Virus record (IMG/VR): IMGVR_UViG_3300042889_001344
Location: 1 to 21,106 of that record
Direction: 5' to 3' (one strand)
DNA: 21,106 nt
Source of the DNA: a virus
The notes under the pieces are model-generated. The model made no database searches. It had not been told where the DNA came from and worked only from the letters and a program-made list of their open reading frames with translations. The position numbers and the translations under genes were made by a program. Of the stretch, positions 2,839 through 18,821 are shown in pieces. Numbering within the stretch: the stretch's first letter is position 1; each line of letters opens with the position of its first letter.

Positions 2839-3031
2839 TTTCTTTCACTCCTTCTGGTGAGTCGGATTTTGCCGACTCTTTTAATATAGTATTTAGCTCT
2901 TTTGGAGACTCCATAAGAATTGCAGGGGGATCGGGCATGTAGGCTTGAGGCACCAATCTGGTTTTCTTTCCTCCAAACATACTACACCCAGCAAGGGCCA
3001 ATGCTGCCACGATAATAATTACATATTTCAT
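2831..3031 (-). CDS. Outer-membrane spanin lipoprotein (Rz1-like)
   Basis: The 66-aa product starts with a short lipoprotein signal (MKYVIIIVAALALAGC). The lipobox is LAGC and Cys16 is the lipidation site. The mature part is short, with prolines (PQAYMPDPPAIL), ending in a charged tail. Outer-membrane spanins have this composition: a small lipoprotein that pairs with the inner-membrane spanin to fuse the two membranes in the last step of lysis of Gram-negative hosts. It follows the Rz-like gene after one spacer base. AGGAG lies inside the end of that gene, 6 nt before the ATG. A Gram-negative host is implied. Confidence 0.8.
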   Translation of the reverse strand: MKYVIIIVAALALAGCSMFGGKKTRLVPQAYMPDPPAILMESPKELNTILKESAKSDSPEGVKEND

Positions 3032-3032
3032 A

Positions 3033-3548
3033 TCACTTCTCCTTAGGAGCCTGTAGGTTAGCCTTATCGATCGCCATTTTATTATCCGTAATCCATCTTT
3101 GTAGACTGATTAGCTGTTGCTTATTAGCATGACATGTACTATAATTAGAGAGTACGACTGTTAATGCAGCATTGTCCATCACGCCTGATGGGGACATATC
3201 AGATGCTAACACGGCATCTGGATCCGCGAGTCTTGCTGATGCGTCGTGTAACTCTACCCAACCATTAGAGAGGTTGTTCGTACCTTCACCTAGACCGACC
3301 AGTCTGTCTTTATAAATTGTTTCTTTATCAGTAATGGTTCTAACCACATCGACATATTCTGTAACAACGTTATCAGATATTTTCGTGTTCTCAGTTTTTA
3401 ATTCTGAGATTTGCTTCTCAGCCTTTGCTTGGAAGTTAGCTAGTTCGATCTCGGCATGAGCCGATCCCTTCATGTATCCCCAACCTGCAGCACCAAGCAC
3501 GATAAAGATAATAGCCATAATCTTAACAGGAAACGGAATCATACCCAT
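3033..3548 (-). CDS. Inner-membrane spanin (Rz-like)
   Basis: The 171-aa product has an N-terminal membrane segment at about 8-27. A periplasmic region follows, with a coiled-coil stretch (FQAKAEKQISELKTENTKIS) and a second helix ending near residue 150. The C-terminal part contains the cysteine-bearing segment NYSTCHANKQQLISLQRWI, similar to the end of Rz-type spanins. The partner lipoprotein gene begins directly downstream. This arrangement (Rz then Rz1, separate genes) supports the assignment more than sequence alone does. AAAGG lies 7-8 nt before the ATG, within the end of the preceding gene. Confidence 0.8.
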   Translation of the reverse strand: MGMIPFPVKIMAIIFIVLGAAGWGYMKGSAHAEIELANFQAKAEKQISELKTENTKISDNVVTEYVDVVRTITDKETIYKDRLVGLGEGTNNLSNGWVELHDASARLADPDAVLASDMSPSGVMDNAALTVVLSNYSTCHANKQQLISLQRWITDNKMAIDKANLQAPKEK

Positions 3549-3549
3549 A

Positions 3550-4071
3550 TCACTTACCTTTCAAAAACAATCCAAAAGTTTTTCTGCCTGCCTTAGGAGC
3601 TTCGGCTTGGTTCTTCTTTTTATAACGATTCATAGCAGCTGGCTTGACACCAGGTTCGCCTTGAGGACCAACACCCATACCAGCGATCTTACCAGATCCA
3701 GCTGACATAGTAGGGGCTTCTTCTTTAATACGACCTACTTTTTTATTCACAGCGGCCATAAGTTTCTTGTCATCCATACCAGCAATACGAGCCGCATTGA
3801 CAACATGACCTTTGTTGAGATTCCCTTTGTTGCGCTTTATTAATGCATCTGCATAAGAGTCGACATCTTCGTTCATCTCTGTTCTTGTATAATCAGCAGC
3901 AGTTTGGAGATAGTCATAAGCAAGTGTGACCTTTGACTGGACCCACTCAGGAAGATCAGTATCTGGTTCTAACAGATCATGCATTTGTTGCGCATGCTGC
4001 ATGATACCCTTGAGCTGAGACATTACCATCTCACCCTCAAAACCATACTCTCTAGGATCTTTTTTAGCCAT
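3550..4071 (-). CDS. Conserved phage protein with helical module
   Basis: The 173-aa product has a helical N-terminal domain (about 9-66, including QLKGIMQHAQQMHDLLE and PEWVQSKVTLAYDYLQTA). A middle domain with basic helices follows, then a glycine-rich linker near 122-140 containing GVGPQGEPGV, and a basic C-terminus. I recall the PEWVQSK-type module and the GPQGEPG linker recurring in proteins of T4-like phages from water, often near internal or precursor proteins, but I know of no assigned function. The stop of the upstream gene overlaps its ATG. A virion or head-internal location is an inference. Confidence 0.75.
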   Translation of the reverse strand: MAKKDPREYGFEGEMVMSQLKGIMQHAQQMHDLLEPDTDLPEWVQSKVTLAYDYLQTAADYTRTEMNEDVDSYADALIKRNKGNLNKGHVVNAARIAGMDDKKLMAAVNKKVGRIKEEAPTMSAGSGKIAGMGVGPQGEPGVKPAAMNRYKKKNQAEAPKAGRKTFGLFLKGK

Positions 4072-4460
4072 TAAATCTTCCTTAATACTTCTACAATATA
4101 TTCGTCCATGGGAATGTTACAACTATATATTATACTGTTATCGGGTCCTACATTAGTTACTTTGTCGGGCATATAGTTAAGTAGAACTAGAAACGGCTTT
4201 AAGTAATTATAATAGCCATCTAGCTTATAGAATAGCATTCTAGTAGCAGCTTCCCCGAACACATTATATAATATGGTTAAGTGGTTGAGTATTAGACGCT
4301 CTTTAAGCTCTCCCGACTCTTGATACTTACCAAACAATCTTTTCAAATACTTGAATCTTTTGAGGTCATCATAAAATTCTAGCGTATCGTAACACTGTGG
4401 ATTATCATAGTGCTTCGCAGCAAACAATACAAAATTATTTTCATCAAGTACTTCATGCAT
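4071..4460 (-). CDS. Conserved T4-like phage protein of unknown function
   Basis: The 129-aa product contains the stretches HYDNPQCYDTLEFYDDLKRF and KERLILNHLTILYNVFGEA, then RMLFYKL. I associate this pattern with a protein family found across T4-like cyanophages and relatives, without known function. The length is typical of that family. The ATG at 4460 (MHEVLDENNF) is the first in frame. A clear ribosome site is not visible before it, so the start is moderately certain. The product is soluble, mixed in charge and mainly helical. Confidence 0.8.
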   Translation of the reverse strand: MHEVLDENNFVLFAAKHYDNPQCYDTLEFYDDLKRFKYLKRLFGKYQESGELKERLILNHLTILYNVFGEAATRMLFYKLDGYYNYLKPFLVLLNYMPDKVTNVGPDNSIIYSCNIPMDEYIVEVLRKI

Positions 4461-4502
4461 ATTATAATCTACAAACTCTAAAACGGTTGATATCAGTACG
4501 TA

Positions 4503-4510
4503 TATTTACC
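4503..4510 (-). promoter_or_regulatory. Weak late-promoter-like site GGTAAATA
   Basis: On the minus strand GGTAAATA (then TA) lies 43 nt before the ATG at 4460, in the 89-nt gap downstream of the tail-fibre gene. It keeps TAAATA but lacks the first A of NATAAATA, so it is a weaker match than the other sites. Confidence 0.3.
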
Positions 4511-4549
4511 ACTTGGTATTTCACCTCTACTCTTGCTAAGTACCGTATC

Positions 4550-6490
4550 TTAAATCCACGTCCCCGGACTTGCTTGCCAAGCTCCATCTGTAAAGATTAA
4601 AGTACACATATCTGTGTTGATAACTTCGAGAGGGCTAGCACCTACTATAGTTCTGAACGGATTTAATATCCCATTAGTATCCACATCCCCTGTGTATCTC
4701 CAGTTGGCCACCGTAACAAGTACAGCGGATGGAGAGACGCCGTTTTGGGCTACCAAATACATGATCTGTCCTTCAACACCGTCTGCTAGTGTATAGCTGC
4801 CATCTGTTAGTTTGTTGACAGATTTGGTTAGATCTAATGCTGTAGGAGTTTCTTGAACTACCCCATTAACTGTGACAGTGATAGTAGTACCTGCTGTGCC
4901 ACCAATGTCGCCACTGTCAATTGTTCCCAACACATCGTTGATTGATACGTTTGCTGTGCTACTCACGCTAACAAAATTATTAATAACACCGCCGGTAACA
5001 GCCACACTAAAAGTCACAGTACCCAGCGTAAACGGACCGTATTGAGCGTCGGTTAATCCAGTTAGCGCAGAGTTGGAAGTTAATGACTCAGCAATACCAG
5101 TAGTTGTTGGCAAGACTGTACCAGTCTTGGCCACTGTGCTTTTAACTACTGCACCTGGTAATGTTAGTTTACCATCTGTGCCAAATGTCCAAAGTTTGGT
5201 CCCATCGTCTGTAAAAACTTTTATACCTTTATTTTCACCAGCGGCAAAGACCACATGATCTAAATTGTCTCCACCTATTGCTCCATTGAATGCTCCATAC
5301 TCGTCATAGAACCTAATAACTCTTTGGTTAGGGGCGTTTAGGAATCCATTGGAGTCAAAAGTCCACTTGCCGTTACCACCACCGCTTGGATATAGGAATG
5401 TGTTTATTTCAATACCGCCATCAGTGGTAGTACGCACATTGTGATCATCAGTACCCAAGAAGATACTGGTTTCAGTCAAGTTGCCTGTGGTCAAGTGCAA
5501 GTGATGATCGGCATCAAAAGTAGGGGCCGCCGAGTTGAACAATTGTGTCTCAACACCTATATTCGCAGGATCGTAGTTATTGTCTTCTGGTGATACGCGG
5601 ACTGTGAATTCGTAGTCATCACTGTCTACTGTAAAACTAAAATTACCGGCAGCGTCTGTTAGCGTTACCGTACCAGATTCTGGACTTGCTATACCAGCAT
5701 TCTCCGGGGTGATCCACCAGTAGAGTGTTCCATTGGCATTGGCCGGTGAATTAACAGCTATCTCAACAGTGTCATTGACTAGGGGATTAATTATGTACCA
5801 GTTCAGTGCTATGCCATTGTCATTAGCGGTATAGTTACCACCACCTTTAATCACCAACTTCTGGCTAGCAACATCTGGACTTGCTGGAGTAAGTTGAATT
5901 GTAGGATTGCTGGTAACATACCCCTCTTTAATAGTACCACCGGCTGGTAGTCGTAAATCCCCGTCGTTGCGGAATCGCCATTCTTTAACGTTAGTTTCTT
6001 CAGTGGTCCAATTTGTTCCTATGTGGATGCCATTATTGCCGGTGTTTACCTGTATATATTGAAGCCCGTCGGGGCTGGTAATACCACCGTCATCATCAGG
6101 TATAAACCAAGTTGAGTTGGCTGCGGCTTGACCAGGATATATGTTGGATAGTTTACTACCTGTCGGTAATATTAATGTACCATCGGTGTCAAGCACAACT
6201 TCATTGAGACCGTTGACTAATTTATTTGTAGGCTCACCGGTTCCAGCTTCACCCTTATCACCTTTAGTGCCTGCATCGCCCTTTGTACCAGCAGTTCCAA
6301 CTTCACCCTTATCACCTTTAGTACCAGACACTGCTCCTACTTGAGTTGCAATGTAAGTAGCCAAGGTGTTAGCAGTAACTTTTTTAGTTGAGGAGGTGTT
6401 AGCACCGACCTGCTCTATTAGAAACAGGTCGGTGTTTGATACGGAGGTAGCCGATGTAAATTCAGGTATTTTCTTCGAGCGATTCGACAT
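4550..6490 (-). CDS. Tail fibre with collagen-like repeat
   Basis: The 646-aa product begins with a fibre-type N-terminus (SVSNTDLFLIEQ at about 16-27). A run of nine Gly-X-Y triplets follows from Gly56 to Gly83 (GTK, GDK, GEV and so on), a collagen-like trimeric rod. Further on the pattern W-x-F-x-x-D/N-G-x-L-x-L/A-P recurs, at about 171-182, 376-386 and 434-445. A related copy, VLDTDGTLILPTG, lies near 99. This pattern is usual in fibre proteins of T4-like phages. Beta-rich domains with Ser/Thr/Gly/Asn-rich sequence follow to the C-terminus. The role is probably receptor binding or a fibre segment. GGAG lies 7-8 nt before the ATG. No dedicated chaperone gene is recognisable beside it. Confidence 0.8.
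   Translation of the reverse strand: MSNRSKKIPEFTSATSVSNTDLFLIEQVGANTSSTKKVTANTLATYIATQVGAVSGTKGDKGEVGTAGTKGDAGTKGDKGEAGTGEPTNKLVNGLNEVVLDTDGTLILPTGSKLSNIYPGQAAANSTWFIPDDDGGITSPDGLQYIQVNTGNNGIHIGTNWTTEETNVKEWRFRNDGDLRLPAGGTIKEGYVTSNPTIQLTPASPDVASQKLVIKGGGNYTANDNGIALNWYIINPLVNDTVEIAVNSPANANGTLYWWITPENAGIASPESGTVTLTDAAGNFSFTVDSDDYEFTVRVSPEDNNYDPANIGVETQLFNSAAPTFDADHHLHLTTGNLTETSIFLGTDDHNVRTTTDGGIEINTFLYPSGGGNGKWTFDSNGFLNAPNQRVIRFYDEYGAFNGAIGGDNLDHVVFAAGENKGIKVFTDDGTKLWTFGTDGKLTLPGAVVKSTVAKTGTVLPTTTGIAESLTSNSALTGLTDAQYGPFTLGTVTFSVAVTGGVINNFVSVSSTANVSINDVLGTIDSGDIGGTAGTTITVTVNGVVQETPTALDLTKSVNKLTDGSYTLADGVEGQIMYLVAQNGVSPSAVLVTVANWRYTGDVDTNGILNPFRTIVGASPLEVINTDMCTLIFTDGAWQASPGTWI
6247..6322 (-). 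repeat. 54-nt period repeat encoding collagen-like triplets
   Basis: The 22-nt string starting CTTCACCCTTATC occurs at 6247 and again at 6301, a period of 54 nt equal to six Gly-X-Y triplets. It lies in the collagen-like part of the tail fibre, where unequal recombination could change rod length. Confidence 0.7.
6403..6434 (-). repeat. Perfect 10-bp inverted repeat at start of tail-fibre gene
   Basis: CACCGACCTG (6403-6412) and CAGGTCGGTG (6425-6434) are exact complements around a 12-nt loop. The hairpin would form in the mRNA about 56 nt after the start codon, over codons for residues 19-30. It has no U-tract, so it is not a terminator. It may be a translation-level structure or chance. Confidence 0.45.
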
Positions 6491-6544: not shown

Positions 6545-7177
6545 TTAAGTTGTAATAGTTAATGTAGCGTTAGACGATGTGACTGTGTCAGCACCAGCTG
6601 CCGAGACTGCAACCTTGAATCCAGCATTAGCTGTTTGGACGGCTGAGTTCACGGTAAGTGTTGCAGCAGTAGTTACACCAACGTTAGCATTTGTTGCAAT
6701 CGCTGCACCATTAGCATATGTCCATGCATATGTCAGCGAAGCGCCTGCTGGAGTCGAAGCTCCAACAACAGTGAAGGTTGCATTCTCAGCAGCAGATGTA
6801 TTTGCTGTGGTGTTCGATGGTTGTGTTCTAATGCGAAGTTTGTAATCTTGATAGACAGCGTCTTCACTATCTGTTCCGATTGTCGACATAGCAACAAGCA
6901 CTTCAGTCTGAGTACGTCCAGCACGGCCGCCCGAACCAACTGTACGGAGAACCCAACCAGCGTGAGCAGCGCGATCACCCGAACCTTCTTCGCGTGCGGC
7001 CGTAACTTCGTTAGCATCGACGCCAAATTGACCGGCTGTAACACCAGTGATGAATGCGTCGGCTGTTGTATTGCCAAACAGTGCTGTTTGGTTAACTGTA
7101 TTTGCAGGCAGATTCACTTGTGTGGTGGCCCATAGGACCGAATTTGCCGCGTCGTCTGTATTGCCCCATTGAGCCAT
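6545..7177 (-). CDS. Virion protein with C-terminal Ig-like domain
   Basis: The 210-aa product starts MAQWGNTDDAANSVLWA. I associate this opening with structural proteins of T4-like phages from water. Residues 1-112 contain a Gly-rich conserved core (HAGWVLRTVGSGGRAGRTQ). Residues about 115-209 form an Ig-like beta domain (LRIRTQPSN, SLTYAWTYANG, then AAENATF and NATLTI strands). Surface-exposed Ig domains on phage heads and tails often bind sugars on the host surface. A head-decoration or tail-surface role is likely. AGGAG lies 7 nt before the ATG. A GATAAATA late promoter is 29 nt upstream, so it is probably strongly expressed late. Confidence 0.75.
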   Translation of the reverse strand: MAQWGNTDDAANSVLWATTQVNLPANTVNQTALFGNTTADAFITGVTAGQFGVDANEVTAAREEGSGDRAAHAGWVLRTVGSGGRAGRTQTEVLVAMSTIGTDSEDAVYQDYKLRIRTQPSNTTANTSAAENATFTVVGASTPAGASLTYAWTYANGAAIATNANVGVTTAATLTVNSAVQTANAGFKVAVSAAGADTVTSSNATLTITT

Positions 7178-7204
7178 TTTACTTCTCCTAAGTGTTTACT
7201 TTAG

Positions 7205-7486
7205 TTATTTATCATCTTCATCAAACGAAGGTAAGTTGACTGTGTCATACATATCAGCCAAATATTTTGAAACTCGTTTTTTGTTTGTATTGACAGGTTC
7301 AACCTTAGATGGTGTAGGTTCTCTGGCTACTCGGGGTGCCCGAATTGAAGGTTGTTGTGTATCCCCGCGCAATTCTTGTAAGTTACTTACCACAATCTTA
7401 TCTGTTGTCACAGAGGCAGGTAATGTAGGGGCACTAGACACCCCCACATTGCCTACAATAATATTACCAGCTTTAATTACGCCCAT
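7205..7486 (-). CDS. Hypothetical small protein, possible virion component
   Basis: The 93-aa product begins MGVIKAGNIIVGNVGVSS and continues with a Pro/Thr-rich, basic middle (RAPRVAREPTPSK) and an acidic end (FDEDDK). Its start is one base after the stop of the 911-aa precursor gene, so it is likely coupled to it. The ribosome site is weak. I do not recognise it. Position between the precursor and an Ig-domain virion protein suggests a structural or assembly role, without direct evidence. Confidence 0.6.
   Translation of the reverse strand: MGVIKAGNIIVGNVGVSSAPTLPASVTTDKIVVSNLQELRGDTQQPSIRAPRVAREPTPSKVEPVNTNKKRVSKYLADMYDTVNLPSFDEDDK
7206..7213 (-). promoter_or_regulatory. T4-type late promoter octamer GATAAATA
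   Basis: GATAAATA on the minus strand lies 29 nt before the ATG of the Ig-domain virion protein and overlaps the stop of the 93-aa gene. It matches seven of eight bases of TATAAATA. Confidence 0.75.
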
Positions 7487-7487
7487 A

Positions 7488-10223
7488 TCAATGTCTATAC
7501 CTTACGATTTCACCAGTGTCCCTTGAAGCCTTTGGAAATGGCTCTGAAACAGCCTTTACAAATTCAGCATGGGACTTATGAGCTCTAGTTTGGAAAGCCG
7601 CTTTCTCTTGAGAAGATTTACGCGCTCCCATGTGATCGTTAAATCTTTCCACGTGGTTAGTGCTTACTTCTTTACGTTCGCCGTTCATGAAATGGACTGG
7701 CTTGTTGATAGAAGTAGCTTTACGAAGTTGATAGCCTAGAGCTGCTGGTTCTTCATCTTGACCTACTGGAGCATTCTTAGCTGGACGTCCACGCTTAGCT
7801 TCGTCGAGTTTAGTTTCTTCTGTAGCAGGAACACGAACGTACTTGTTGTTGGATGCTGTATACTTACGAACAGCTACATCAGTACCACGCATGCGTTTAT
7901 CCGACTTACTGTAGTCACCTTTTTCTTGAGCAGCTTTATCTGATTTCTTATTTGCTGAGAGATACTTGAGCATCAGATTCTTCGAAACCTCAACAACCTG
8001 CTCAGCTTCTTCCGAGGCATATACTTTAGCTTTGCCAAAGCCGGCCTTGTTATAGGCCATGTCCATACCTTTTTTACGTTTTGCCACAGTCTTTTTGTCA
8101 GAATCTTTATCAAACATAGACTGGTATGCTTTGCTGTGATACTTATCCAGACCTACAACAGAAAGCTCATCAACCTGTTCGACTTCTTCCTTCATCTTCT
8201 CTTTTGCCATCATAGCACGAACCTTATCAGCAGTCTTCTTATCTGATGCAGTTGGTTCGTCAGAAGTAGGAACGTAGCCTTCCTTCATCTTCTTCTCACG
8301 ATACTTCCTAGCGCGCTCTCTGCGCTCAGCATCTGTAGTGATAGGACCGATTGTACCCATATGTCTGGGGTTGTCCTTATAAGAACCTTCGTCGAGCTCG
8401 ACTTCTTCCTTCATCTTCTTCTTCGAGTGCATGTGTGACTCAGCCTGGAGAACTTCCATGTCTTCTGTCATTACACGCTCGATGCCATGATCGAACATAA
8501 CATCATACCACTCGATAAGACCTTCCGCATCTGGATCAGCGTGCATAGTCTTGATAGGTGTGCCCTCATTCCATTCCTTATGGAAGACCTTTGTAGCACA
8601 CATGTGGGCATCACCTTCCATTGAACCAGGAGCAACGCCAGCCAACTTAGCTTCGATCATTTCGATCTCTTCCTTGGTCAGCTTATCAACAGCGGTTTTG
8701 ATTCCTGTTTCACGATTCTTACGAAGACGTTCTGCCTTATCGTAAGTTGCTTGGTTGAATCTTTTGCCGAAGTGTCCTGTTTCACTGTCGCCTTGATATG
8801 CAGCGATTGTTGTAATAGGAACACTCTTTGGATTCATTGGATTCTTTGGACGTTCAGCGCCCGATGCTTTCTTAACATAGGATCCAAGAGTCTTCTTCGA
8901 AAGCTCATCGATCTGTTCGGCTTCTTCCTTAGTCAGTTTGTCAACGGCCTTATCGATACCGAAGTAACGCTTGCTTGCGCGTTTGTTATGTTTGCGCTCG
9001 AGATTGCCTACTCTCGCACCAGCATCCGATCGACGTCCGAGTTCAATGCCAGCGATTTGATCCGAACGGCTCATTTGATCCTTAGCCTTCTTAACATAGG
9101 ATCCAAGAGTCTTCTTTGAAAGCTCATCGATCTGCTCTGCATCTTCCTTGGTCAACTTCTTAACTGCAGTTTCGATACCCTTGTGGCGCTTGGTCAGCTT
9201 CTTTTCAAGTGGATTATTTGATTTATACGGAGTCGATGAAGAAATTGCTGTCCCGTCCTTTATACCACTTCTGTATGAAGTCAAGTCAATAGAGTCTTTT
9301 GCTTTATTGATGTAGCGACCCATGGTTGCTTTCGAGATCTCGTCGACCTGCTCGACTTCTTCTTTACTAAATTTAGATTTTAAATTTACCTTATCTCCCA
9401 ATCTGCGTACGGAGGCTTTTGAAAAATCTAGACCTTTATGTGTGTCTGCGCGGCGTGCCGCAACCTCAGCTGGAGGATTATCGTAACTTTTTTGTGCTAA
9501 TTCCCGTGCATGCATAGCGTTATCGGCATTGTGATACTTTGTTGCTTTATTTGGGATAGATACACGAAAATATCCTGGCTTCGAAGCTTCGTCGAGCTCT
9601 ACTTCTTCTTTCATGCCATTAGCGCGTTCGCGGGTTTTCTTAGCGTCGGACATTGACTTCTTTGTTACACGCGTAGCCTTCAGTTCAGCTTCAAGATCAG
9701 CATCGATCTCTTCTTTGAGTCTAATAACACCGAGCTTCTTACGAACTGCGTGAGCAAGACCTGTGTATCCCACACCAAAATCATTAGCGGCGGACATAAC
9801 ATGGCTCTTACGGATGTTGTCTCCATAGCGCTTTTGAAGATGAGCAACAATCTTTGCCGTTGCCTCATCAAGAACTTCTACTTCTTCCTTAGCCAGCTTG
9901 CTGGATGCTTTCCGTACTCCTGCATAGCGATTGTCAACCTTCTTAGTAGAAAGGTTACGGTGGCCACGAGCATCAGATGCTTTATCCATATAGCTACGCA
10001 TCGTGTCTGTTGAAAGCTCGTCGACCTGCTCGACTTCTTCTCTAGTAACTCCGCGACCCTTTAGGACATCAGCATGAGTGATCTTGTCCTTAGGTTCTGC
10101 AAGAGCTGCTAATTTCTTTTCTTTATCAGTCGCTGGGACTGTATGGGTTTTAGCTTCCATGATTTTGCGAACATCGTCGATGAGGCTCTTAGACAAGCTC
10201 TTCAGAAAGTTATTGTTATCCAT
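7488..10223 (-). CDS. Modular precursor with about 12 prohead-protease-like sites
   Basis: The 911-aa, highly charged protein is built from repeated modules of about 46-103 residues, each ending in an acidic stretch such as EEVEQVDE or EEVELDE. Site Glu residues are near 23, 69, 120, 212, 295, 367, 440, 524, 612, 686, 745 and 808. Several (Glu23, 120, 212, 612, 808) fit the T4 gp21 rule (L/I)xE before A/G exactly. Others read (V/I)DE before L or I, followed by S. Between sites the modules are basic and helical, for example SKKTLGSYVKKA at 369-380 and again at 442-453. The N-terminus (LIDDVRKIME then A) could act as a targeting peptide. I infer a head-internal polyprotein cut into small basic peptides, comparable to T4 core-derived peptides. 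GGAG and a CATAAATA promoter precede the ATG. A scaffold role is an alternative. Confidence 0.8.
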   Translation of the reverse strand: MDNNNFLKSLSKSLIDDVRKIMEAKTHTVPATDKEKKLAALAEPKDKITHADVLKGRGVTREEVEQVDELSTDTMRSYMDKASDARGHRNLSTKKVDNRYAGVRKASSKLAKEEVEVLDEATAKIVAHLQKRYGDNIRKSHVMSAANDFGVGYTGLAHAVRKKLGVIRLKEEIDADLEAELKATRVTKKSMSDAKKTRERANGMKEEVELDEASKPGYFRVSIPNKATKYHNADNAMHARELAQKSYDNPPAEVAARRADTHKGLDFSKASVRRLGDKVNLKSKFSKEEVEQVDEISKATMGRYINKAKDSIDLTSYRSGIKDGTAISSSTPYKSNNPLEKKLTKRHKGIETAVKKLTKEDAEQIDELSKKTLGSYVKKAKDQMSRSDQIAGIELGRRSDAGARVGNLERKHNKRASKRYFGIDKAVDKLTKEEAEQIDELSKKTLGSYVKKASGAERPKNPMNPKSVPITTIAAYQGDSETGHFGKRFNQATYDKAERLRKNRETGIKTAVDKLTKEEIEMIEAKLAGVAPGSMEGDAHMCATKVFHKEWNEGTPIKTMHADPDAEGLIEWYDVMFDHGIERVMTEDMEVLQAESHMHSKKKMKEEVELDEGSYKDNPRHMGTIGPITTDAERRERARKYREKKMKEGYVPTSDEPTASDKKTADKVRAMMAKEKMKEEVEQVDELSVVGLDKYHSKAYQSMFDKDSDKKTVAKRKKGMDMAYNKAGFGKAKVYASEEAEQVVEVSKNLMLKYLSANKKSDKAAQEKGDYSKSDKRMRGTDVAVRKYTASNNKYVRVPATEETKLDEAKRGRPAKNAPVGQDEEPAALGYQLRKATSINKPVHFMNGERKEVSTNHVERFNDHMGARKSSQEKAAFQTRAHKSHAEFVKAVSEPFPKASRDTGEIVRYRH
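8871..9155 (-). repeat. Direct repeats inside the 911-aa precursor gene
   Basis: Stretches starting at 8871 and 9090 are nearly identical for about 45 bases (CTTAACATAGGATCCAAGAG and onward, one difference), then diverge gradually. The 219-nt spacing equals 73 codons, one module. They encode LSKKTLGSYVKKA preceded by the acidic site. DNA-level identity suggests recent module duplication or recombination. Confidence 0.85.
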
Positions 10224-10261: not shown

Positions 10262-10864
10262 TTAGTCATTATCAATAATTTTGAGCTTGCGCTGAGCCTT
10301 CAGTGACCTACGAATCAAATAGTTTTTGCTATTATCAACGTCTCGGTCAGAAGTTCTATCTGTACTATATTTTTTGCTGTCTGTTTTAAAACGTAGATCG
10401 TCAGAAGGGTGTACATGATCTTCGGGATCTATGATTCTTTTTGGCGCGTTGGCCGCATAGTCATTGAGGTGGCGCATGATATCCGTAAGGATTTCGTTGT
10501 GCTCTTTCTCAAGACCCATTTCCTTAGCCATTGCTCTCACCTTCTTTTCGCTGGTGATAGCTGTTCCTAAATCGCTCACATTTATAGAGTTTCTAACTCT
10601 AGCATCTCTAAACAGATCAAAAATTTTATCTAATTCAATAGCTCCAGCTTCAGCTGCTGTTGAAGGAGTTGTTGAAGGTAGATTGGAGTATAACTTCTGA
10701 GCCTTATCAGACATCTCAAAGGATTTCGTAACGTATGACCCCACAGCAATCTGGTCATTCATGTCCTTTTCAGGACCCCCATCAGGTGCAGTGACGCCAT
10801 GAGCTCCCGGAGCAGCTCTTTCAAGCATTAATCTTGCAACACGTCCTAGGGAAGTAAATGCCAT
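10262..10864 (-). CDS. Hypothetical 200-aa phage protein
   Basis: The product begins MAFTSLGRVARLMLERAAPG. It has a Ser/Thr/Ala-rich linker near 63-75, a helical middle (LDKIFDLFRDARVRN, KVRAMAKEMGLEKEHNEILT) and a charged C-terminus with DPEDHVHPSDD and a basic end. The MLE-R-A stretch at about 13-17 loosely resembles a targeting/cleavage peptide, but the residue after Glu is Arg, so I do not count it. Its ATG overlaps the Dps stop codon (TAATG), which couples the two genes. No family is recognised. The adjacent genes suggest a head-internal or DNA-associated role. Confidence 0.7.
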   Translation of the reverse strand: MAFTSLGRVARLMLERAAPGAHGVTAPDGGPEKDMNDQIAVGSYVTKSFEMSDKAQKLYSNLPSTTPSTAAEAGAIELDKIFDLFRDARVRNSINVSDLGTAITSEKKVRAMAKEMGLEKEHNEILTDIMRHLNDYAANAPKRIIDPEDHVHPSDDLRFKTDSKKYSTDRTSDRDVDNSKNYLIRRSLKAQRKLKIIDND

Positions 10865-11316
10865 TAGACTCTCTTTGTCACAGAACGGAGCATCCAGGAG
10901 TGAACTCTATGGGCTTCAATTCTATCTTGTATAAAGTTAGCAGTGCCGTATCTATCAACAGCTTCGGCTTTCTTCATCACATTAATGAGCATAGGTGTTA
11001 GTTTGTCGTTGTCTGCTAGAAGTCTTGCAGCCATTTCGAGACCAGATACAATAGTATCATCGCCTTCAACAGCCGATAGTTCTCCTAGACGTTTGAATGA
11101 ACCTGGAGCGTAAGCATCTAATGCTCGGATATGCTCTGCCATCTTATCAATCGATCCACCAACCTCTTGATATACGTCGCCGAAGAAGTCGTGGTATTGT
11201 GGAAAGTTAGGACCTTCTACATTCCAGTGATAATACTGAGCCTTGATGTAAAAGGCATATGTGCTGGCGAAAGCTACTTTCAGCTCTTCGATCAACTCTT
11301 GTACTTGTTCGTCCAT
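10864..11316 (-). CDS. dps: Dps / ferritin-like protein
   Basis: The 150-aa product matches the Dps family, which forms 12-subunit shells that oxidise and store iron and often bind DNA. The family pattern is clear: YYHWNVEGPNFPQYHDFF then SIDKMAEHIRALD. Ferroxidase ligands His30, His42, Asp57 and Glu61 are present with the usual spacing of 12, 15 and 4. There is no basic N-terminal tail of the E. coli type. Length is near the lower end for the family. It is preceded by an AATAAATA site 25 nt upstream and coupled to the 200-aa gene by TAATG. It has no targeting-like N-terminus. It may protect phage or host DNA from iron and peroxide, or remove iron during infection. Confidence 0.9.
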   Translation of the reverse strand: MDEQVQELIEELKVAFASTYAFYIKAQYYHWNVEGPNFPQYHDFFGDVYQEVGGSIDKMAEHIRALDAYAPGSFKRLGELSAVEGDDTIVSGLEMAARLLADNDKLTPMLINVMKKAEAVDRYGTANFIQDRIEAHRVHSWMLRSVTKRV

Positions 11317-11348: not shown

Positions 11349-11613
11349 ACCATGCTTTGCAAGACCAGTAACGCGCTTTATCCTTTGGACCAGGATTATC
11401 ACAATTGTGACGCGCTCTAAATGACTTGCGACGAGCTGGTATATTCTTTTTGATGGTCATGTTCTTATCGCCAAAGTTCACCTTCTTGGCTACACCATCC
11501 CCATCTAGATCTACAAACACTTTAGACTTTTTTACGTCTCCAGGCAAGCGTTTATTCAGCGTTACCTTCTTACCTTGATAAGTTGCTTCTACAAATTCTT
11601 TAAAGCGTATCAT
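11347..11613 (-). CDS. Small basic protein with targeting-like N-terminus
   Basis: The 88-aa product begins MIRFKEFVE followed by A, then YQGKKVTLNKRLPGD, a DLDGDG segment, and the block RRKSFRARHNC ending in ARYWSCKAW. I recall the RKSFRARHNC to WSCK block, with its conserved cysteines, from many phage and viral proteins of unknown function. The strong positive charge suggests DNA contact in the head. An in-frame ATG exists 12 nt upstream at 11625 (four more residues). I chose 11613 because GGA lies about 9 nt before it and because the N-terminus then aligns with the other targeting-like peptides. It overlaps the end of the 727-aa gene by 14 nt. Confidence 0.8.
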   Translation of the reverse strand: MIRFKEFVEATYQGKKVTLNKRLPGDVKKSKVFVDLDGDGVAKKVNFGDKNMTIKKNIPARRKSFRARHNCDNPGPKDKARYWSCKAW

Positions 11614-13783
11614 CTGGTTTTCCATCTGTTAAGTTGCCAGTGCCAATAATCTTACGATCCACCTTTTGTTTACGTATTACTGTTTTACCTGAAGCAGTAT
11701 GCACGACCACGCCCTTTACATCTGCAGATCTTACTTCTTCATCAACTTCTTGTTCCGTCTTTCTTTTTTTCATTTCTTCCACGACTGAAGGATGTAGGGC
11801 AAAACCACCTTGGGCTTGCATACCTAAATCTTTTGCTGTCATAGTTACGCCAATTCCAGCTGCAAAAGCAATGTTGAAATTTTCATCTAGGGATTCACCT
11901 GGAGTATCTTTTTTATATGCCTTCACCAATGAATCGGTGGCGACGAGGCGTTTCTTAGGATCTGGCTGAGAGTTGCCTTGCTCGTCAATGATCTTCTTTT
12001 GAATCTCTTGCTGCTTACTATGTTCGGTGTATGGAGGCTTACGATCTACAACTTCGATCTTCTTACGAGCCTTTGAGTTCCTCGACTCTTTATCGACAAG
12101 GGTAGTACCATTGCCCGTATCTTCTTCAGTGATAGGACCGTTGACTAACCACTTATTGCAGGTTCTATCCCCTGCACATTTAAACTCGAATAGCTCACAA
12201 AAGCCAAGATTCGAAAGCTCTTGAATCTTTTTGCCTGCAGGTCCAAGACCCTCTGCCATCTTTTTCATAACTGCAGGAGCTTGGTTGAATGCGGCACAAT
12301 TACCACAGCGAGCTTCCATTGCAGCTTCTACAGTAGTATTCCACATCTTAGCTTTCTTGTCCCAGAAAGGTTTTGACCCCTTCTCGTCACCAGGATTAAG
12401 AGGACCATAACCATCATTCTGAGTGGTCATGTCACGGTTCTTAGTATTAAGATCGAGATCTGTCAGAGCTTTGTAATGCTTAGAGTTTACATCATAACCC
12501 TCTTCGATGGATTCTGATGCATCTCTAAAGTTCTGCTTAGTAGGAGCTCCTTCGGATCCAGGCTTACGCATACGCTCACCTGAGCCAGCCTTAATGCGCT
12601 TACGCTTGGCATGGATATTATCCCACAGTCCAGCTTCACCAAGATCAGTCTCTTCATTGTGATGCATGTTGAGCATCCAATGAGCTAATTGCTTTTTGCG
12701 AGGGGAAGCAGTCTCAGAAGAGCGAATTGCCTTAAGCTCAGATGCTGATTTGCCCTTCAGACCGTGGCGAGCTGAATCGCCTGGCTTACCTGGGCCTTTA
12801 CCATCCATGAAGTTCTCGTTTGTTTCTTCATTCTTTTTCTTTAATGCTGGGCATGTACCACCTTGTGATGGGGGCACGTGAGTTGTACCACAACGACCAC
12901 ATGGTGTAGCTTTAGCTTCCTGAAGACCAGCATGCTTAAGAGCGGACTTCTTGGCATGTGGCTGCCAGTACTTTACCTTACCCCACTTATCAGATGACTT
13001 CCAGCCTTTTTGATTGCCTTGCTCATCGTTGAATGGAGCAACATATGCTCTACCAGGAGCACGAGCTTCATGGAGGTCAGCATCTTCGTTAAAGTATGTC
13101 TTGCCCTGATTGATGTATGAGTTTACACGGGCGAATGCATACTGTTGTTGTGATACGCCAGTACTTTCGTTCCAGGATTCGATTCCTCGATCATAGACGA
13201 TTCCTAGGATATCTTCCTTGACATTAGCCTTTTCAGCCTTTTTAGAAATGGCTTTATAGACTGAAGTCTTATTTTGCTTTTCGTCCTCGAACTTACCAAA
13301 GAATATAATGTTGTCGTTTTTCGAACTTTGTTGCTCTGCTTGTTTTCTTTGATTTGCTATGCTATCAAAATTTTCTGAAAATAAAGTGTTTAGTTCTTCA
13401 GATACAGGAGTATGTCCTGTGTTACCTAAAGCCTGTCCTTTAACAAAGGCTTGTAATCTCTTTGCCTCATCCTGCTTGATACGAGGAATCAATCGGAGAG
13501 CTAGAGTTTTAATTAGAGCAGTTTTCTTTTCAATTGCTCTGTCAATGGACATCTTTTCTGTTGGACCTAGCTTTTGGTAATCAGCTCCTTTGTTACCAGC
13601 GACCATCTTACGGACCATCTGGCGGGCCTGAACATAGGCTCTCTTTTTAATATTTTTTTCGGGAGCTAATCGCTTTTGGGATAGTTCTCTTGCGCGCTCA
13701 ATCTTACTGTGATAACGTCGCAGAATTTGCGCGCGCTTCTGGCGCTGCGTAATATCAAGAACCTTCTCGTCTAATTCGTCCAT
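11600..13783 (-). CDS. Basic modular precursor with Cys clusters
   Basis: The 727-aa product starts with a strongly basic helical domain (about 1-115; QRQKRAQILRRYHSKIERAR). From about 237 it becomes a chain of short modules separated by (L/I)xE before A/G sites: LHE-A (Glu239), LQE-A (289), LGE-A (383) and IEE-G (428), with AME-A (490) a looser match. Modules include CGRCGTTHVPPSQGGTC (295-311), a block near 336-372, the basic WDNIHAKRKRIKAGSGERM (387-405), and a Cys-rich module at 493-544 (CGNC, then FCELFEFKCAGDRTCNKW). I recall several of these modules recurring in phages of this type. I infer a head-internal polyprotein. AGAGGA lies 4-5 nt before the ATG. The gene follows a terminator-like hairpin at 13798-13831. 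Confidence 0.8.
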   Translation of the reverse strand: MDELDEKVLDITQRQKRAQILRRYHSKIERARELSQKRLAPEKNIKKRAYVQARQMVRKMVAGNKGADYQKLGPTEKMSIDRAIEKKTALIKTLALRLIPRIKQDEAKRLQAFVKGQALGNTGHTPVSEELNTLFSENFDSIANQRKQAEQQSSKNDNIIFFGKFEDEKQNKTSVYKAISKKAEKANVKEDILGIVYDRGIESWNESTGVSQQQYAFARVNSYINQGKTYFNEDADLHEARAPGRAYVAPFNDEQGNQKGWKSSDKWGKVKYWQPHAKKSALKHAGLQEAKATPCGRCGTTHVPPSQGGTCPALKKKNEETNENFMDGKGPGKPGDSARHGLKGKSASELKAIRSSETASPRKKQLAHWMLNMHHNEETDLGEAGLWDNIHAKRKRIKAGSGERMRKPGSEGAPTKQNFRDASESIEEGYDVNSKHYKALTDLDLNTKNRDMTTQNDGYGPLNPGDEKGSKPFWDKKAKMWNTTVEAAMEARCGNCAAFNQAPAVMKKMAEGLGPAGKKIQELSNLGFCELFEFKCAGDRTCNKWLVNGPITEEDTGNGTTLVDKESRNSKARKKIEVVDRKPPYTEHSKQQEIQKKIIDEQGNSQPDPKKRLVATDSLVKAYKKDTPGESLDENFNIAFAAGIGVTMTAKDLGMQAQGGFALHPSVVEEMKKRKTEQEVDEEVRSADVKGVVVHTASGKTVIRKQKVDRKIIGTGNLTDGKPDDTL

Positions 13784-14027: not shown

Positions 14028-15371
14028 TCAGCGAGAAACTTCTTCCCAGTCTACTGATGCAAGAATATCAGAGCCGTTATTACCGGTTGATGCTACCAGC
14101 GAAAGCTCAAAAGGGGCACCTGTTAAGCCGTTTCTTTCTAATTGAAACTTAAAGAGAGCTTCCTTCAGAATATCAACCGAACCAGCTCCCTGGTTAGACC
14201 CATATGTGTAGCCTGATGCTAGAACTCTACCACCTGTATAATCTCCGCCGCCAATCTTATACTCGACAGCACTATCAGCACCAGCATCAACCCACGTTCC
14301 ACCATTTGACGTACCACTTGCTCTTACTTGCCAATTATAAGCAGCATTGTTTGTCACGCCTAGAATAGAAAGAGCTGTAAGAATAACAATAGCGTCAAGA
14401 CGATTCGGTGTTGTCTTCAGTCTGATCGATAAAACTGTATAGTAAGTCCCAGCTACTGGTAAGTCTATTGGTGTTGTAATAGGAACAGTAGCAGCCTGCT
14501 GCAACCCACGCAGTTCATATCCACCTTCGGATACTACGGATGAACAAACTTGGCCCATTGTAGATGGACTGGCTGTTGTGCCTGTATTCTTCATCTCGTA
14601 GCGAAGTGGAAGAGAAGCAGTCGTGATGTATGTCGAAGCAATTAAATTGGCATGGTGGAACGAATGACAGTGGATCAGCTTGCCATCGATGACAAACCCA
14701 CAACGAACTGTGCCTAGACCAAGCCATTCGATATCCATCCAGAAGATCTGAGCCTTAGATAAATCAAGCTCTACGCCAGAAGGACAAGGCCCTACACCTT
14801 GGCCAGGTATGTTTACATCCGATCCTTGCAGTGTGTCTATATTCCAATCGGATTGGGCAACCCGTGTTTCTACTAATGCCCCTGTTGTGTATGATCTTTC
14901 TACAAAATATGCAGTAGTACCATCTATCTCAAAGTAGATTCCATTTTCTGCACCAAAGTATCCAACACGTTGGCGGAGGTTAGCTTTCGGTGTTGCAGGA
15001 ACAACCGTGTTTAAAATAAACAGAGATTTGCCTGGTTGGTATGAACAGACCTTGGTGGTCTCTCTAATAATCTCAGCATCTGCGGTTGTAGGTAGTGTGA
15101 GATTGATGAGTCCTTGGTTTGTGCTATGGGCTACCGTTGTACCAGCAGTGTTAGAAGTATTCCAAAGACCATTATCCCTGTATCTATGAGATGAATCAAA
15201 CAAGGTCATTGGCATCGACATACGAGAGCGACCAAACGCATCGACCGCAACGCCAGAAGGATTAGCTGGACCTACCAGGTTACCGTATGGATCTGCCAAC
15301 ATAACAGCTTCAAAGAGCGTTACGTTATGAGGTTGCTTCCATTCGTGTGAGTCGATACGCCATTGAGCCAT
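14028..15371 (-). CDS. Conserved virion structural protein, beta-rich
   Basis: The 447-aa product starts MAQWRIDSHEWK. It contains stretches I associate with a widespread phage structural-protein domain: DAFGRSRMSMPMTLFDSSHRY, IIRETTKVCSYQPGKSLFILNT, LRQRVGYFGAENGIYFE, IFWMDIEWLGLGTVRCGFVIDG and CHSFHHANLI. These form a lectin-like beta sandwich in the first 300 residues, followed by a second beta domain with Gly/Ser-rich ends. The usual role is in the tail fibre or capsid surface; the exact site is not determinable here. It is translated directly after the bifunctional enzyme gene (TAATG). It has no targeting-like N-terminus, so it is probably an outer virion component. Confidence 0.8.
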   Translation of the reverse strand: MAQWRIDSHEWKQPHNVTLFEAVMLADPYGNLVGPANPSGVAVDAFGRSRMSMPMTLFDSSHRYRDNGLWNTSNTAGTTVAHSTNQGLINLTLPTTADAEIIRETTKVCSYQPGKSLFILNTVVPATPKANLRQRVGYFGAENGIYFEIDGTTAYFVERSYTTGALVETRVAQSDWNIDTLQGSDVNIPGQGVGPCPSGVELDLSKAQIFWMDIEWLGLGTVRCGFVIDGKLIHCHSFHHANLIASTYITTASLPLRYEMKNTGTTASPSTMGQVCSSVVSEGGYELRGLQQAATVPITTPIDLPVAGTYYTVLSIRLKTTPNRLDAIVILTALSILGVTNNAAYNWQVRASGTSNGGTWVDAGADSAVEYKIGGGDYTGGRVLASGYTYGSNQGAGSVDILKEALFKFQLERNGLTGAPFELSLVASTGNNGSDILASVDWEEVSR

Positions 15372-16834
15372 TATCTTTTAACCTTAATTTTGCCAGCCAT
15401 CAAGCCTACACGAGTTCTATCCATAATCGACTTAGCTTCTTTATCAGAAAAGTTGGATCCAAGATGCTTTTTGTAGGTTGGAAGATCGCTTTCTGTAGCT
15501 GCTGTTCTCATCTTTGTACCAGACATGCCATGCGAGCGATTCTCATCCTTAGGATAGTGAATATGAACTGCATCTGGCTTATGACCTTGAAGTTCTGGGA
15601 TCTTACCAGCTTCAATAGATGATTTCAGCCGCTCTGCCATCTCTTTACGGTCGTGACCAAAGTGTAGGTGGAGAACTTTCTTGCCTGGACCCTTCATCGA
15701 GTGAAATGCACGTCCGACAGTCATACCTGCAGATTTTTCTACCTTGAATTCAGCCTTACCATCTGATTGCTTGTTAGCAATATCTTCTCTTTCTTTATCA
15801 GAAAAAACATCTGACTTACCCGAGAGTCCTACAAACTTCTTACCATGACCCATACCACCAACAACATCAGTGTGGTGACCCATGTGAGTATGTGGTGAAG
15901 CTCCCATGAACGCTGCATGGGCGTGCTGCTCGGCTGCTTCAGTCAGAGATTCGCTGACAGTATCCTTAACACCTAAGTGCTTACGGAGGTGTGATAGAGC
16001 AGGCTCATGATCAGTGCCCTTTTGGGACTGTACACTGCTCTTAAACTTATCGTAGATAGCCTGATGCTGTTCCTTTGGAACGTGCTTTTTAATCAGACTT
16101 GTCACGCCTTGGAATGAATGAATCTGTGTATGATCGGCTTTATGACCGAACATATGATGTGCAACTTCTGTTGGATGAGTCTTACCCGGATCTGAATCGT
16201 CTGTACGGGATCTTAATCCATGCGTGATAGAGAACTTATGTTTATCACCACCGACTGCATTGATTAGAATCTTATGGTGAGCACCCTTGATTCCAGCCTT
16301 AGTATCGTGCCATGAGGACGAGTGAAGGAATCGTTCTGATTCTGAGCCAGGATGTTTTACGCCTTGGAAGTCAAACTGGTGGTGTTCACCATTGTCGTGC
16401 TTCATAACAGCAGAGATCTCGTTACCATGCTTCTTTGTACCAGCAACAGTATACTTACCGAATCGATGACCAGCCTTCAATGTGGACTCGAGTTTATTCT
16501 TGTGATCCTGTGTCACCTGAACATCGACGTCCCCAACGCTCGGCTTATGCTTAGCGAATTCTTCGTGTGAAATATTTTTGTCCATGAGGTCATGGGTCGA
16601 GCCAGAGTAGATATGTCCGGCATGCAGATGCTCTTGACCATGTCCGAATAGATGCTCACCATGCTCTTTATGAAAAGCATCGTGAATTGAACCTAAGGCA
16701 TGATGAATATCATTTCTTTTCTGTCCACGATTTTTGGCTGTGACTGAAAAGGGAGCAGCTGATGTTTCAGATCCTTTAGGACCTACTTTGACGTTGCCAC
16801 CCTCGACAATGAAACTCTTGAAACGTATGGTCAC
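15371..16834 (-). CDS. Fused NTase + HxGH adenylyltransferase, packaged
   Basis: The 487-aa product (GTG start, GGAG 7 nt upstream) begins MTIRFKSFIVE followed by G, a targeting and gp21-cleavage-like peptide. Residues about 40-210 resemble a pol-beta-type nucleotidyltransferase: SGST (77-80), GDVDV with Asp102 and Asp104, and a likely third Asp155. Residues about 303-480 resemble an HxGH-type adenylyl/cytidylyltransferase such as NMN adenylyltransferase: FMGASPHTHMGH (309-320) and SGTKMR (438-443). At 297-300 lies LTE then A, an exact gp21-type site exactly between the domains, so protease action could split it into two enzymes. It is His-rich (53 of 487 residues). GTGA overlap couples it to the ligase-like gene. 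Substrates are not visible from sequence. Confidence 0.75.
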   Translation of the reverse strand: MTIRFKSFIVEGGNVKVGPKGSETSAAPFSVTAKNRGQKRNDIHHALGSIHDAFHKEHGEHLFGHGQEHLHAGHIYSGSTHDLMDKNISHEEFAKHKPSVGDVDVQVTQDHKNKLESTLKAGHRFGKYTVAGTKKHGNEISAVMKHDNGEHHQFDFQGVKHPGSESERFLHSSSWHDTKAGIKGAHHKILINAVGGDKHKFSITHGLRSRTDDSDPGKTHPTEVAHHMFGHKADHTQIHSFQGVTSLIKKHVPKEQHQAIYDKFKSSVQSQKGTDHEPALSHLRKHLGVKDTVSESLTEAAEQHAHAAFMGASPHTHMGHHTDVVGGMGHGKKFVGLSGKSDVFSDKEREDIANKQSDGKAEFKVEKSAGMTVGRAFHSMKGPGKKVLHLHFGHDRKEMAERLKSSIEAGKIPELQGHKPDAVHIHYPKDENRSHGMSGTKMRTAATESDLPTYKKHLGSNFSDKEAKSIMDRTRVGLMAGKIKVKR

Positions 16835-17790
16835 TTATTTGCTCCGAATCTGCTTGCACCAGTCTTAGACTTTTTGAATGCATCGCTGGTTATTTTGAAT
16901 CTTGCTGCCTCAGAATTGTGAGCAGAAGGGTGTACAATTAGACCTTCTGTCCCCGAACCCCATTTAGGCTTAATGCCTTGCTTCTGAATGTGATCTTGTA
17001 CTTTACCCGATACACGCTTTTTGATGTTGTTAAACTTCTCTACTTCAGCTAGCTTAGCAGCTTTGTTTTTAGGAGTAGTACGAGAATTAATCAGACCATG
17101 ATCCAGCTTGTGGTAGTCTGATACTTCCGACTTCACATCTACGTGGCCTGGTTTGTGCTTGATTTTATCATCATCGAATGTTACGTTGTGATCGGATAAT
17201 TTCTTGAAGTGCTCTGTATCATGTCCACTGTTGTCTGGTAGCTTTGAGTGGATAATAAACGAGCCATGCTTACCCATATTCTTGGTCGAATATGACGTAT
17301 GAACGAACTTAGATTCGCCCTTCTTTGCTCCGGGCGTGGCTAGATTACGATTAAAAGCTTCTCCTCTTACAATCACATCTTTGCCTGTCTTCTTATGTTC
17401 TGAGGCTAGATGATCTTGGAGGGCTTTGTTTTTGTGAAGTGCGTTATGAAACTTAGAGAAGGCTTCTGGAGCTTCAGGACGATATTCCTTACCTGTTTCC
17501 TGTGCTCTTTTCTTTGCACGATCAATATGCCCTTGGCCAGTACGAATTCGTTCGTCGCCAGAGCCAGAATGCTGTGTAAAGAAACCATGCTTATCGTGAC
17601 CCATTACAAGAGTTTGACCATCGGTCTTCTCTGTAACATCACGTACGTGCAGCTTACCACCTTTTGTAGACTTTTCGAACTGATCCGTGGATAGCGATGG
17701 TGTCTGATTACCAGCTGCTGTTGTGGTAGAATGGATGTGTGGTAGGCCTACGCGAACCGATTCTTTGATGAAGGACTTAAATGATTTCAT
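16831..17790 (-). CDS. Ligase-type nucleotidyltransferase, packaged
   Basis: The 319-aa product starts MKSFKSFIKE followed by S, an exact match to the targeting/cleavage pattern. The body fits the covalent nucleotidyltransferase (DNA/RNA ligase) superfamily. Motif I is EKTDG at 54-58 with Lys55 as the probable adenylated residue. A strand with Glu lies in VIVRGEAF (139-146), motif IV-like EGLIVHP at 282-288, and motif V-like ARFKI with Lys299. Length is like short RNA-ligase-type enzymes without an added OB domain. It is His-rich (24 of 319). TATAAATA lies 28 nt upstream. The downstream gene overlaps by GTGA. Ligase activity itself is an inference; a capping-type or inactive member is possible. 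Confidence 0.7.
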   Translation of the reverse strand: MKSFKSFIKESVRVGLPHIHSTTTAAGNQTPSLSTDQFEKSTKGGKLHVRDVTEKTDGQTLVMGHDKHGFFTQHSGSGDERIRTGQGHIDRAKKRAQETGKEYRPEAPEAFSKFHNALHKNKALQDHLASEHKKTGKDVIVRGEAFNRNLATPGAKKGESKFVHTSYSTKNMGKHGSFIIHSKLPDNSGHDTEHFKKLSDHNVTFDDDKIKHKPGHVDVKSEVSDYHKLDHGLINSRTTPKNKAAKLAEVEKFNNIKKRVSGKVQDHIQKQGIKPKWGSGTEGLIVHPSAHNSEAARFKITSDAFKKSKTGASRFGANK

Positions 17791-17831: not shown

Positions 17832-18821
17832 TCAACTCTTCCTGCGTGAGGGGAATTGGTTAAACATCTTTTGATACTTCGAGAAGTTTAGAATCATCTG
17901 TGTGTGCCAGACTTGCTTTTCGTTATCATCGGTTGTAACAGTCAGCACAGCGTTTGTCCAGATGTTACCTGTCATCTTAGCATCGACAACAGGCTTACCA
18001 ATCTTCTGAATCATCTTCTCCATGAAATTACGGTATGCATCTTCTGCACCCTGCTTATTCATTTCGATATAACGGTCGATCATAACCTTATTAGGTTCGC
18101 GGATATCTGGCTCGCCTCTGCTAAGCGAGCTCTTTGTGGACTTAGTAATAGAACGATACAGATCACGTTTAGCCTGAGCAGTCTTATATTCCGATGCACT
18201 CATTGTACGGGAACTGGGATAAGGAGCAACTTTATCTAGATCCATGCCATGCTTCTTAAGTACTTCCAGCCTATCATTGACGAAGTCTTTCGCCCGCTTT
18301 TCAGCCATCGCGATGTATTCGTTCATATGGCTTTCGAAGATCTTGATAAGAGGTGCTGACGAAGCTTTCTTGCCTGACATCACTTTCTCTGCAGCAGCCT
18401 TGACTTCAGCTCGCTTCTGAGAGGTCTTGACCACCTTACCCTTGAGGGTTTTAAGGTCAGCAGCAATAGGAGTCCATGTCTTAACTACCTGGTTGCCAGC
18501 TGTAATAACATCCTTTAACTTAGGATCCTTGACTTTGGCGAGTATTTTTGCAGCTTTGTTGAGCGATGCAAACGAATCATGTGGCCACCCATAATAGAGA
18601 TCAACCAACTCCTGCGGTCTATACTCAGCATGCATATGCTTGAGCATCACACTACGAGCATGGTTTGTATCGCTACCGAAAATACGACGAGCTTGATTAC
18701 CAAGATCCTGATATACAGGATTGAGGATTTCTCCAGCCTTCTTATGACTAGCAATAGCGGCTGTAATCTCACCTACGGTGGTCATACGTGCTTCTGTAAC
18801 GAATGAGCTAAAGTTTTTCAT
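17832..18821 (-). CDS. Unidentified helical protein, targeting-like N-terminus
   Basis: The 329-aa product begins MKNFSSFVTE followed by A, matching the other targeting-like peptides except Val in place of Ile/Leu. The remainder is helix-rich and basic: an Ala/Lys-rich region near 85-150, the segment ESHMNEYIAMAEKRAKDFVN (about 163-182), and a C-terminal beta part (NAVLTVTTDDNEKQVW). No catalytic motif is recognised. Its ATG overlaps the stop of the HAD gene (TAATG), so the two are translated together. A head-internal protein injected into the host is the inference. Confidence 0.75.
   Translation of the reverse strand: MKNFSSFVTEARMTTVGEITAAIASHKKAGEILNPVYQDLGNQARRIFGSDTNHARSVMLKHMHAEYRPQELVDLYYGWPHDSFASLNKAAKILAKVKDPKLKDVITAGNQVVKTWTPIAADLKTLKGKVVKTSQKRAEVKAAAEKVMSGKKASSAPLIKIFESHMNEYIAMAEKRAKDFVNDRLEVLKKHGMDLDKVAPYPSSRTMSASEYKTAQAKRDLYRSITKSTKSSLSRGEPDIREPNKVMIDRYIEMNKQGAEDAYRNFMEKMIQKIGKPVVDAKMTGNIWTNAVLTVTTDDNEKQVWHTQMILNFSKYQKMFNQFPSRRKS

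Follow-up and report, generated by a model that had tools for sequence, protein, structure and literature searches.

What kind of protein is encoded by a single long open reading frame in which much the same acidic site returns a dozen times, and would the protein be cut at these sites? This question is raised by the ORF on the minus strand at 7488-10223 of the window, by which we mean the whole stretch of 21,106 nucleotides analysed (positions 1 to 21,106 of IMG/VR record IMGVR_UViG_3300042889_001344, the record consisting of that fragment only). The ORF starts with ATG, has GGAG upstream and encodes 911 aa with a pI of 9.4. The protein is matched by phrog_5709 (E=2.6e-14), while the Pfam search returned no domain above cut-off, compared with the two or more conflict domains by which polyvalent proteins are recognized, and a literature search on the repeat peptide found no paper. 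DUF6926, considered as a family name, was dropped because its match at residues 428-458 (E 0.00025, 21.7 bits) is below the cut-off of 27 and the relatives gave zero matches. In our view, the protein is probably an internal-head or prohead-core polyprotein of a T4-like myovirus, processed at its linkers by the gp21-type protease of the phage.

The first-pass annotation had proposed twelve Glu-ending sites in this protein, and all 12 were found at the residues claimed, spaced by 46-103 residues: 23 IME↓A, 69 VDE↓L, 120 LDE↓A, 212 LDE↓A, 295 VDE↓I, 367 IDE↓L, 440 IDE↓L, 524 MIE↓A, 612 LDE↓G, 686 VDE↓L, 745 VVE↓V and 808 LDE↓A (the arrow marks the candidate cut). It was also right in counting five that fit the gp21 rule exactly, that is, (L/I)xE followed by Ala or Gly (5/12). 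The other seven deviate from this strict form, P1' being Leu, Ile or Val at six of the sites, and P3 is Leu or Ile at 7/12, Val at 4/12 and Met at 1/12, so that the (L/I)xE signature of a gp21 (S77) substrate is present in the chain. Ten copies of the acidic motif E[EDA][VAIT]E were counted, where 2000 shuffles gave 0.54 +/- 0.74 (maximum 5), whereas plain (V/L/I)xE shows no enrichment (15 against 12.4 expected from shuffles). Therefore, what stands out in this protein is an extended acidic linker, E-E-(V/A)-E-(Q)-(I/V/L)-D-E, and not LxE alone. A conserved helix has its N-cap at the (V/I)DE↓(L/I) sites, whose conservation could therefore be partly structural; this class is the shakiest part of the proposed cutting, and the Ala/Gly class is its most secure prediction.

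At least five kinds of sequence lie between the linkers, namely LSKKTL hairpins, an HTH-like KRYGDNIRKSHV module, a CATKV...WYDVMF barrel, basic segments and a C-terminal AT-hook-like module (all coordinates that follow are on the minus strand). The chain opens with a targeting- or propeptide-like helix (residues 1-23, 10155..10223) that ends IME↓A, followed by a linker module (24-69, 10017..10154) ending EEVEQVDE↓L and by an LSKKTL-type hairpin module (70-120, 9864..10016) ending EEVEVLDE↓A. The HTH-like KRYGDNIRKSHV module (121-212, 9588..9863; end EEVELDE↓A), which resembles part of the gene at 3550-4071, and a module without assigned type (213-295, 9339..9587; end EEVEQVDE↓I) precede three LSKKTL-type hairpin modules (296-367, 9123..9338, end EDAEQIDE↓L; 368-440, 8904..9122, end EEAEQIDE↓L; and 441-524, 8652..8903, end EEIEMIE↓A). 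After these come an acidic CATKVFHKEW...WYDVMFDHGIE module predicted to form an SH3/Tudor-like barrel (525-612, 8388..8651; end EEVELDE↓G), a basic module (613-686, 8166..8387; end EEVEQVDE↓L), two LSKKTL-like modules (687-745, 7989..8165, end EEAEQVVE↓V; and 746-808, 7800..7988, end EETKLDE↓A) and the C-terminal module (809-911, 7491..7799), which opens with the AT-hook-like KRGRPAK. The earlier description of the modules as basic and helical thus holds for part of the chain: the majority of the fragments are net positive, but the 525-612 module has a net charge of -11 and is predicted to be a small beta barrel; the first two fragments carry 0 and -1. AlphaFold models the LSKKTL modules as helical hairpins at low confidence (mean pLDDT 63), and the parts of the fragment model with the lowest confidence, residues 8-18 and 84-91 of the fragment, hold two of the linkers. 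For the 525-612 module, Foldseek gave nothing significant (best E 0.17) and VIA-align gave SH3/Tudor folds with Z of at most 4.7, which may reflect merely a common arrangement.

Scans of viral contigs yielded 182 non-redundant modular relatives with 530 linkers between them, the longest being 1417 aa; the 911-aa protein is the richest of them in linkers, having 10 by the same pattern. In these relatives, small modules are combined as mosaics through an E-E-(V/A)-E-x-(L/I/V)-D-E linker, in which Asp occupies P2 in 68%, and P1' is taken by Ala in 28%, Leu in 27% and Ile in 9%, with P1 being Glu by construction of the pattern and part of the loci having been found through the linker itself. Downstream of 510 linkers, 243 sequence clusters were counted on 45-residue windows, 189 of them singletons (single-linkage on whole inter-site segments had merged unlike modules). 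In a test made independent of the acidic motif, LxE was more frequent directly upstream of modules than elsewhere in the same ORFs, for the AT-hook (70% vs 11%), IHAKRKR (94% vs 29%), CWxGY (94% vs 28%), EF-hand (82% vs 21%) and CATKV (90% vs 51%) modules, and it stood upstream of 41/42 hairpin modules in loci that were not chosen by the hairpin seed. In 30% of cases, breakpoints of pairwise homology lay no more than 10 residues from a linker, vs 15% for random positions, a figure to be read with the breakpoints not being independent and a conserved linker being able to draw alignment ends. Modules exist both as stand-alone genes and within polyproteins, a related one being a small protein in podovirus WH11-B, and folded domains also lie between linkers in the relatives, i.e., HicA toxin, cytidylyltransferase, EF-hand and DUF5824. 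The HicA module (PF07927, E 2.3e-12) directly follows VEQLDE in a linker-bearing phage protein (contig L148, 3650-5377). Cultured phages that have a protein of this type include Caulobacter phage Cr30 (AGS80949; host C. crescentus CB15), BUCT-ZZ01 (UTS52006; host S. elongatus PCC 7942) and P-TIM68 (AIR93496). A single-protein scan of bacterial genomes retrieved a single contig belonging to a metagenome-assembled bacterial bin, and its adjoining modular ORF of the cytidylyltransferase type suggests that it is of phage origin.

The idea of a head polyprotein is strengthened by the position of the same modules elsewhere, since the repeat and linker of the family are found within bona fide prohead-core proteins, beside portal, S77 protease and scaffold genes. 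The main repeat, the LSKKTLGSYVKKA hairpin with its linker, is embedded in core genes between portal and protease, and within the gp22 scaffold. On contig L112, the portal (1090-2568) is followed by a core protein with multiple LSKKTL modules (2581-3444), the S77 protease (4174-4815) and the gp22 scaffold (4858-6024), which matches Pfam T4_CASP at 3e-66 and itself has a DFEQLDE↓LSKKTLGSYMKKA module. On two others (L122 and L139), a phrog_1064 'prohead' domain is followed by the same modules in a core protein that has the portal on one side and the protease on the other, and in the isolate Synechococcus phage BUCT-ZZ01 such a modular core gene likewise sits between portal and protease. In T4, gp21 cleaves after (L/I)xE, both gp22 and gp67 end up as several fragments, and mature heads keep fragments of each (PMC9026906, PMC9958956). 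The gp23 and gp22 of the relatives carry LFE↓T, LTE↓S, LSE↓A, LTE↓A and LDE↓S where T4 predicts cuts, and the candidate maturation site of gp23 in Cr30 is IFE↓A, the gp23 sites being placed by resemblance to T4. All relative records tested that reach 100 kb or more have the S77 prohead protease; it was not found on the 21-kb fragment.

The claim is further strengthened by the linkers preceding many unrelated modules and by the N-terminus, whose end is of the LxE type as in head-targeted proteins. An N-terminal LxE was found in 100/171 relatives vs 276/1133 other ORFs. The 23 residues ending IME↓A do not have the canonical MKxFxxFxxE form of the T4 IPs and Alt, the T4 criterion being 10-19 residues with an (L/I)xE end. 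The anatomy of the chain, the modular mosaicism, the fusion of modules to prohead-core proteins and the protease in relatives are established here, and from them we infer how the chain would be cut, and how completely, which pieces would be retained and injected, and what these might do. Given its N-terminal LxE-type end, resembling that of capsid-targeted propeptides, and its LSKKTL hairpins of the scaffold/core kind, the chain would enter the prohead core during assembly. The activated S77 (gp21-type) protease would then cut the acidic linkers behind their Glu, with most confidence at (L/I)xE↓(A/G) and probably at (V/I)DE↓(L/I), and would set free as many as 13 pieces, each about 3-12 kDa in size, including basic hairpins, an AT-hook, an HTH-like piece and an SH3/Tudor-like barrel. 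The AT-hook module is likely to bind DNA, and, by analogy with the T4 IPs, some pieces may be retained alongside the packaged DNA and would probably be delivered into the host.

The neighbourhood of the gene in the window is of interest in this respect. A second modular protein of 727 aa (11600..13783, minus strand) has the LxE-type sites LHE↓A, LQE↓A, LGE↓A, IEE↓G and LDE↓N, which separate DUF5824, IHAKRKR (phrog_16028) and an iron-sulfur-type module; at its residues 439-553 it matches phage proteins that carry the annotation high-potential iron-sulfur protein. A stand-alone protein of 173 aa (3550..4071, minus strand) consists of YGFEG...LPEWVQSK and HTH-like modules that are found within modular proteins of the relatives. 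A virion structural protein (phrog_1645, E=4.9e-141) is encoded in the same strand cluster (14028..15371, minus strand), and several neighbours have T4-CTS-like N-termini (MKxFxxFxxE), such as a 319-aa protein (16831..17790, minus strand; MKSFKSFIKE↓S) and a 329-aa one (17832..18821, minus strand; MKNFSSFVTE↓A). Searches of solved structures for two window neighbours gave no match. The Synechococcus phage S-CREM2 is partly syntenic with this region, and in its purified virions the cytidylyltransferase (MKNFSSFLTE↓A), gp155, gp156 and the modular gp160, which is without the LSKKTL module, were detected at 11-16% coverage, the authors mentioning a possible carry-over of non-structural proteins in virion preparations (PMC10665884). 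S-SM1 virions, too, contained a cytidylyltransferase, one belonging to the T4-GC190 cluster (PMC3037559).

Three other explanations were weighed against this evidence. The protein could be a sacrificial filler of the prohead core, cut by the protease into small peptides, most of which exit as space is cleared for DNA, with modules that have no later function. The same hairpin modules do occur within gp22 and a gp67/68-like core protein, and in T4 the homologues of these are broken down to small peptides, which presumably escape (PMC9958956); however, a filler needs no such diversity of domains as the HicA, cytidylyltransferase, EF-hand, DUF5824 and AT-hooks between the linkers of relatives and the SH3/Tudor-like barrel here, and even T4 gp22 and gp67 still leave fragments in the head (PMC9026906). 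We therefore regard this explanation as unlikely. Less probable still is a modular internal protein that loses just its N-terminal propeptide, as T4 IPs do, and keeps the linkers as flexible spacers or helix caps for folding. The resemblance of E-L-S-x-x-T-L to a helix N-cap, a conservation of the P1 Glu that is about that of the leading residues of the next helix, the single processing site of the T4 IPs and the plain LxE count in the 911-aa protein are all consistent with an uncut chain, but the linker precedes many unrelated types of module, often with Ala at P1', and it is also present in gp22 and in core proteins that have cleaved counterparts in T4.

That the protein has no place in the head at all, being a cytoplasmic multi-domain product of early or middle expression whose linkers just record the shuffling of domains between phages, seems very improbable to us. 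Its gene does lie outside the portal-capsid block: in the 21-kb window neither a portal nor a major capsid gene was identified adjoining the 911-aa ORF, which is not in a portal-protease interval, and the small protein of podovirus WH11-B would also agree with such a role. Against it, modules of this family are fused to scaffold and core proteins, the gene is among CTS-bearing proteins, the phrog_1645 virion structural protein and spanin genes on one strand, and syntenic proteins of S-CREM2 were detected in virions.

As to the function of the pieces, the first-pass annotation had suggested peptides for DNA compaction, which fits just part of the likely cargo, since the relatives also hold folded domains such as the HicA toxin and the cytidylyltransferase. 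A broader reading, possible although we advance it tentatively, is that T4-like phages of aquatic bacteria use a modular effector polyprotein in which interchangeable mini-proteins on protease-cleavable linkers are loaded into the head via core-type hairpins, freed as the head matures, injected together with the genome, and exchanged at the linkers, by which new effectors would be acquired; its cargo might include DNA-binding hairpins, AT-hooks, barrels, HicA-type toxins and nucleotidyltransferases. If so, the head-maturation protease, known for scaffold clearing and capsid trimming, would also mature polyproteins, and one gene would deliver many small proteins. The acidic linker with LxE would then serve as a rule by which unannotated mini-proteins of aquatic phages, hundreds in number and often otherwise hypothetical, could be found and delimited, and head cargo would become predictable and testable.

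The closest known systems are the T4 core proteins gp22, gp67 and gp68 and their relatives (T4_CASP, phrog_237, phrog_1064), into which relatives of these modules and linkers are built. Cutting into several fragments by gp21, some of them kept in the head, is known for gp22 and gp67 and is predicted here. In contrast to the core proteins, the 911-aa protein has 12 shuffled modules behind its N-terminus, and domain and phrog searches found in it neither the T4_CASP nor the phrog_1064 domain that relatives with the same modules have. Like T4 IPI-III and Alt, it has a candidate N-terminal propeptide with an LxE-type end and is probably head cargo, but the T4 IPs are each processed at a single site to give a single product, compared with about 12 candidate sites and many predicted products here. 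The polyvalent proteins of phages and conjugative elements, in the part of the account by Iyer et al. 2017 (PMC5512222) considered here, also have many domains per chain, some of them likely packaged or injected, and processing has been proposed for them; these domains are mostly enzymatic, however, and processing is ascribed to built-in MPTase domains, whereas the 911-aa chain has small modules and linkers that fit the prohead-protease rule, and a protease domain was not found in it. Among the ejection or inner-body proteins of giant phages (phiKZ, SPN3US), a gp21-like protease cleaves head proteins after Glu; in the portion of the SPN3US literature covered, cleavages besides those of the protease itself yield N-terminal propeptides, and a many-module chain is not reported.

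Some further features of the window and of its relatives deserve mention. The minus-strand segment 15371-19423 holds enzyme-like neighbours, the majority with CTS-like N-termini: 16831-17790 has EKTDGQ (KxDG-like), the C-terminus of 15371-16834 is cytidylyltransferase-like, and 18821-19423 is HAD/polynucleotide kinase-like; these could be nucleic-acid repair enzymes delivered by the head. A Dps/ferritin-like protein (10864-11316, minus strand) adjoins both modular proteins, with a similar gene in the L020 neighbourhood (7074-7529), and an Rz-like spanin pair is encoded at 2831-3548 (minus strand). PHM2_169 was rejected as a modular virion protein, its sequence having no linkers. Near their N-termini, the internal-type proteins S-CREM2 gp160 (L350, 23343-24236) and P-HM2_171 (L023, 15269-15973) carry a copy of the N-arm that directly follows the maturation site in their own major capsid protein, a possible mimic for docking to the capsid; the copies have alignment scores of 95 and 107, respectively, against shuffle maxima of 51 and 50, and gp160 also matches phrog_696 'major head protein'.
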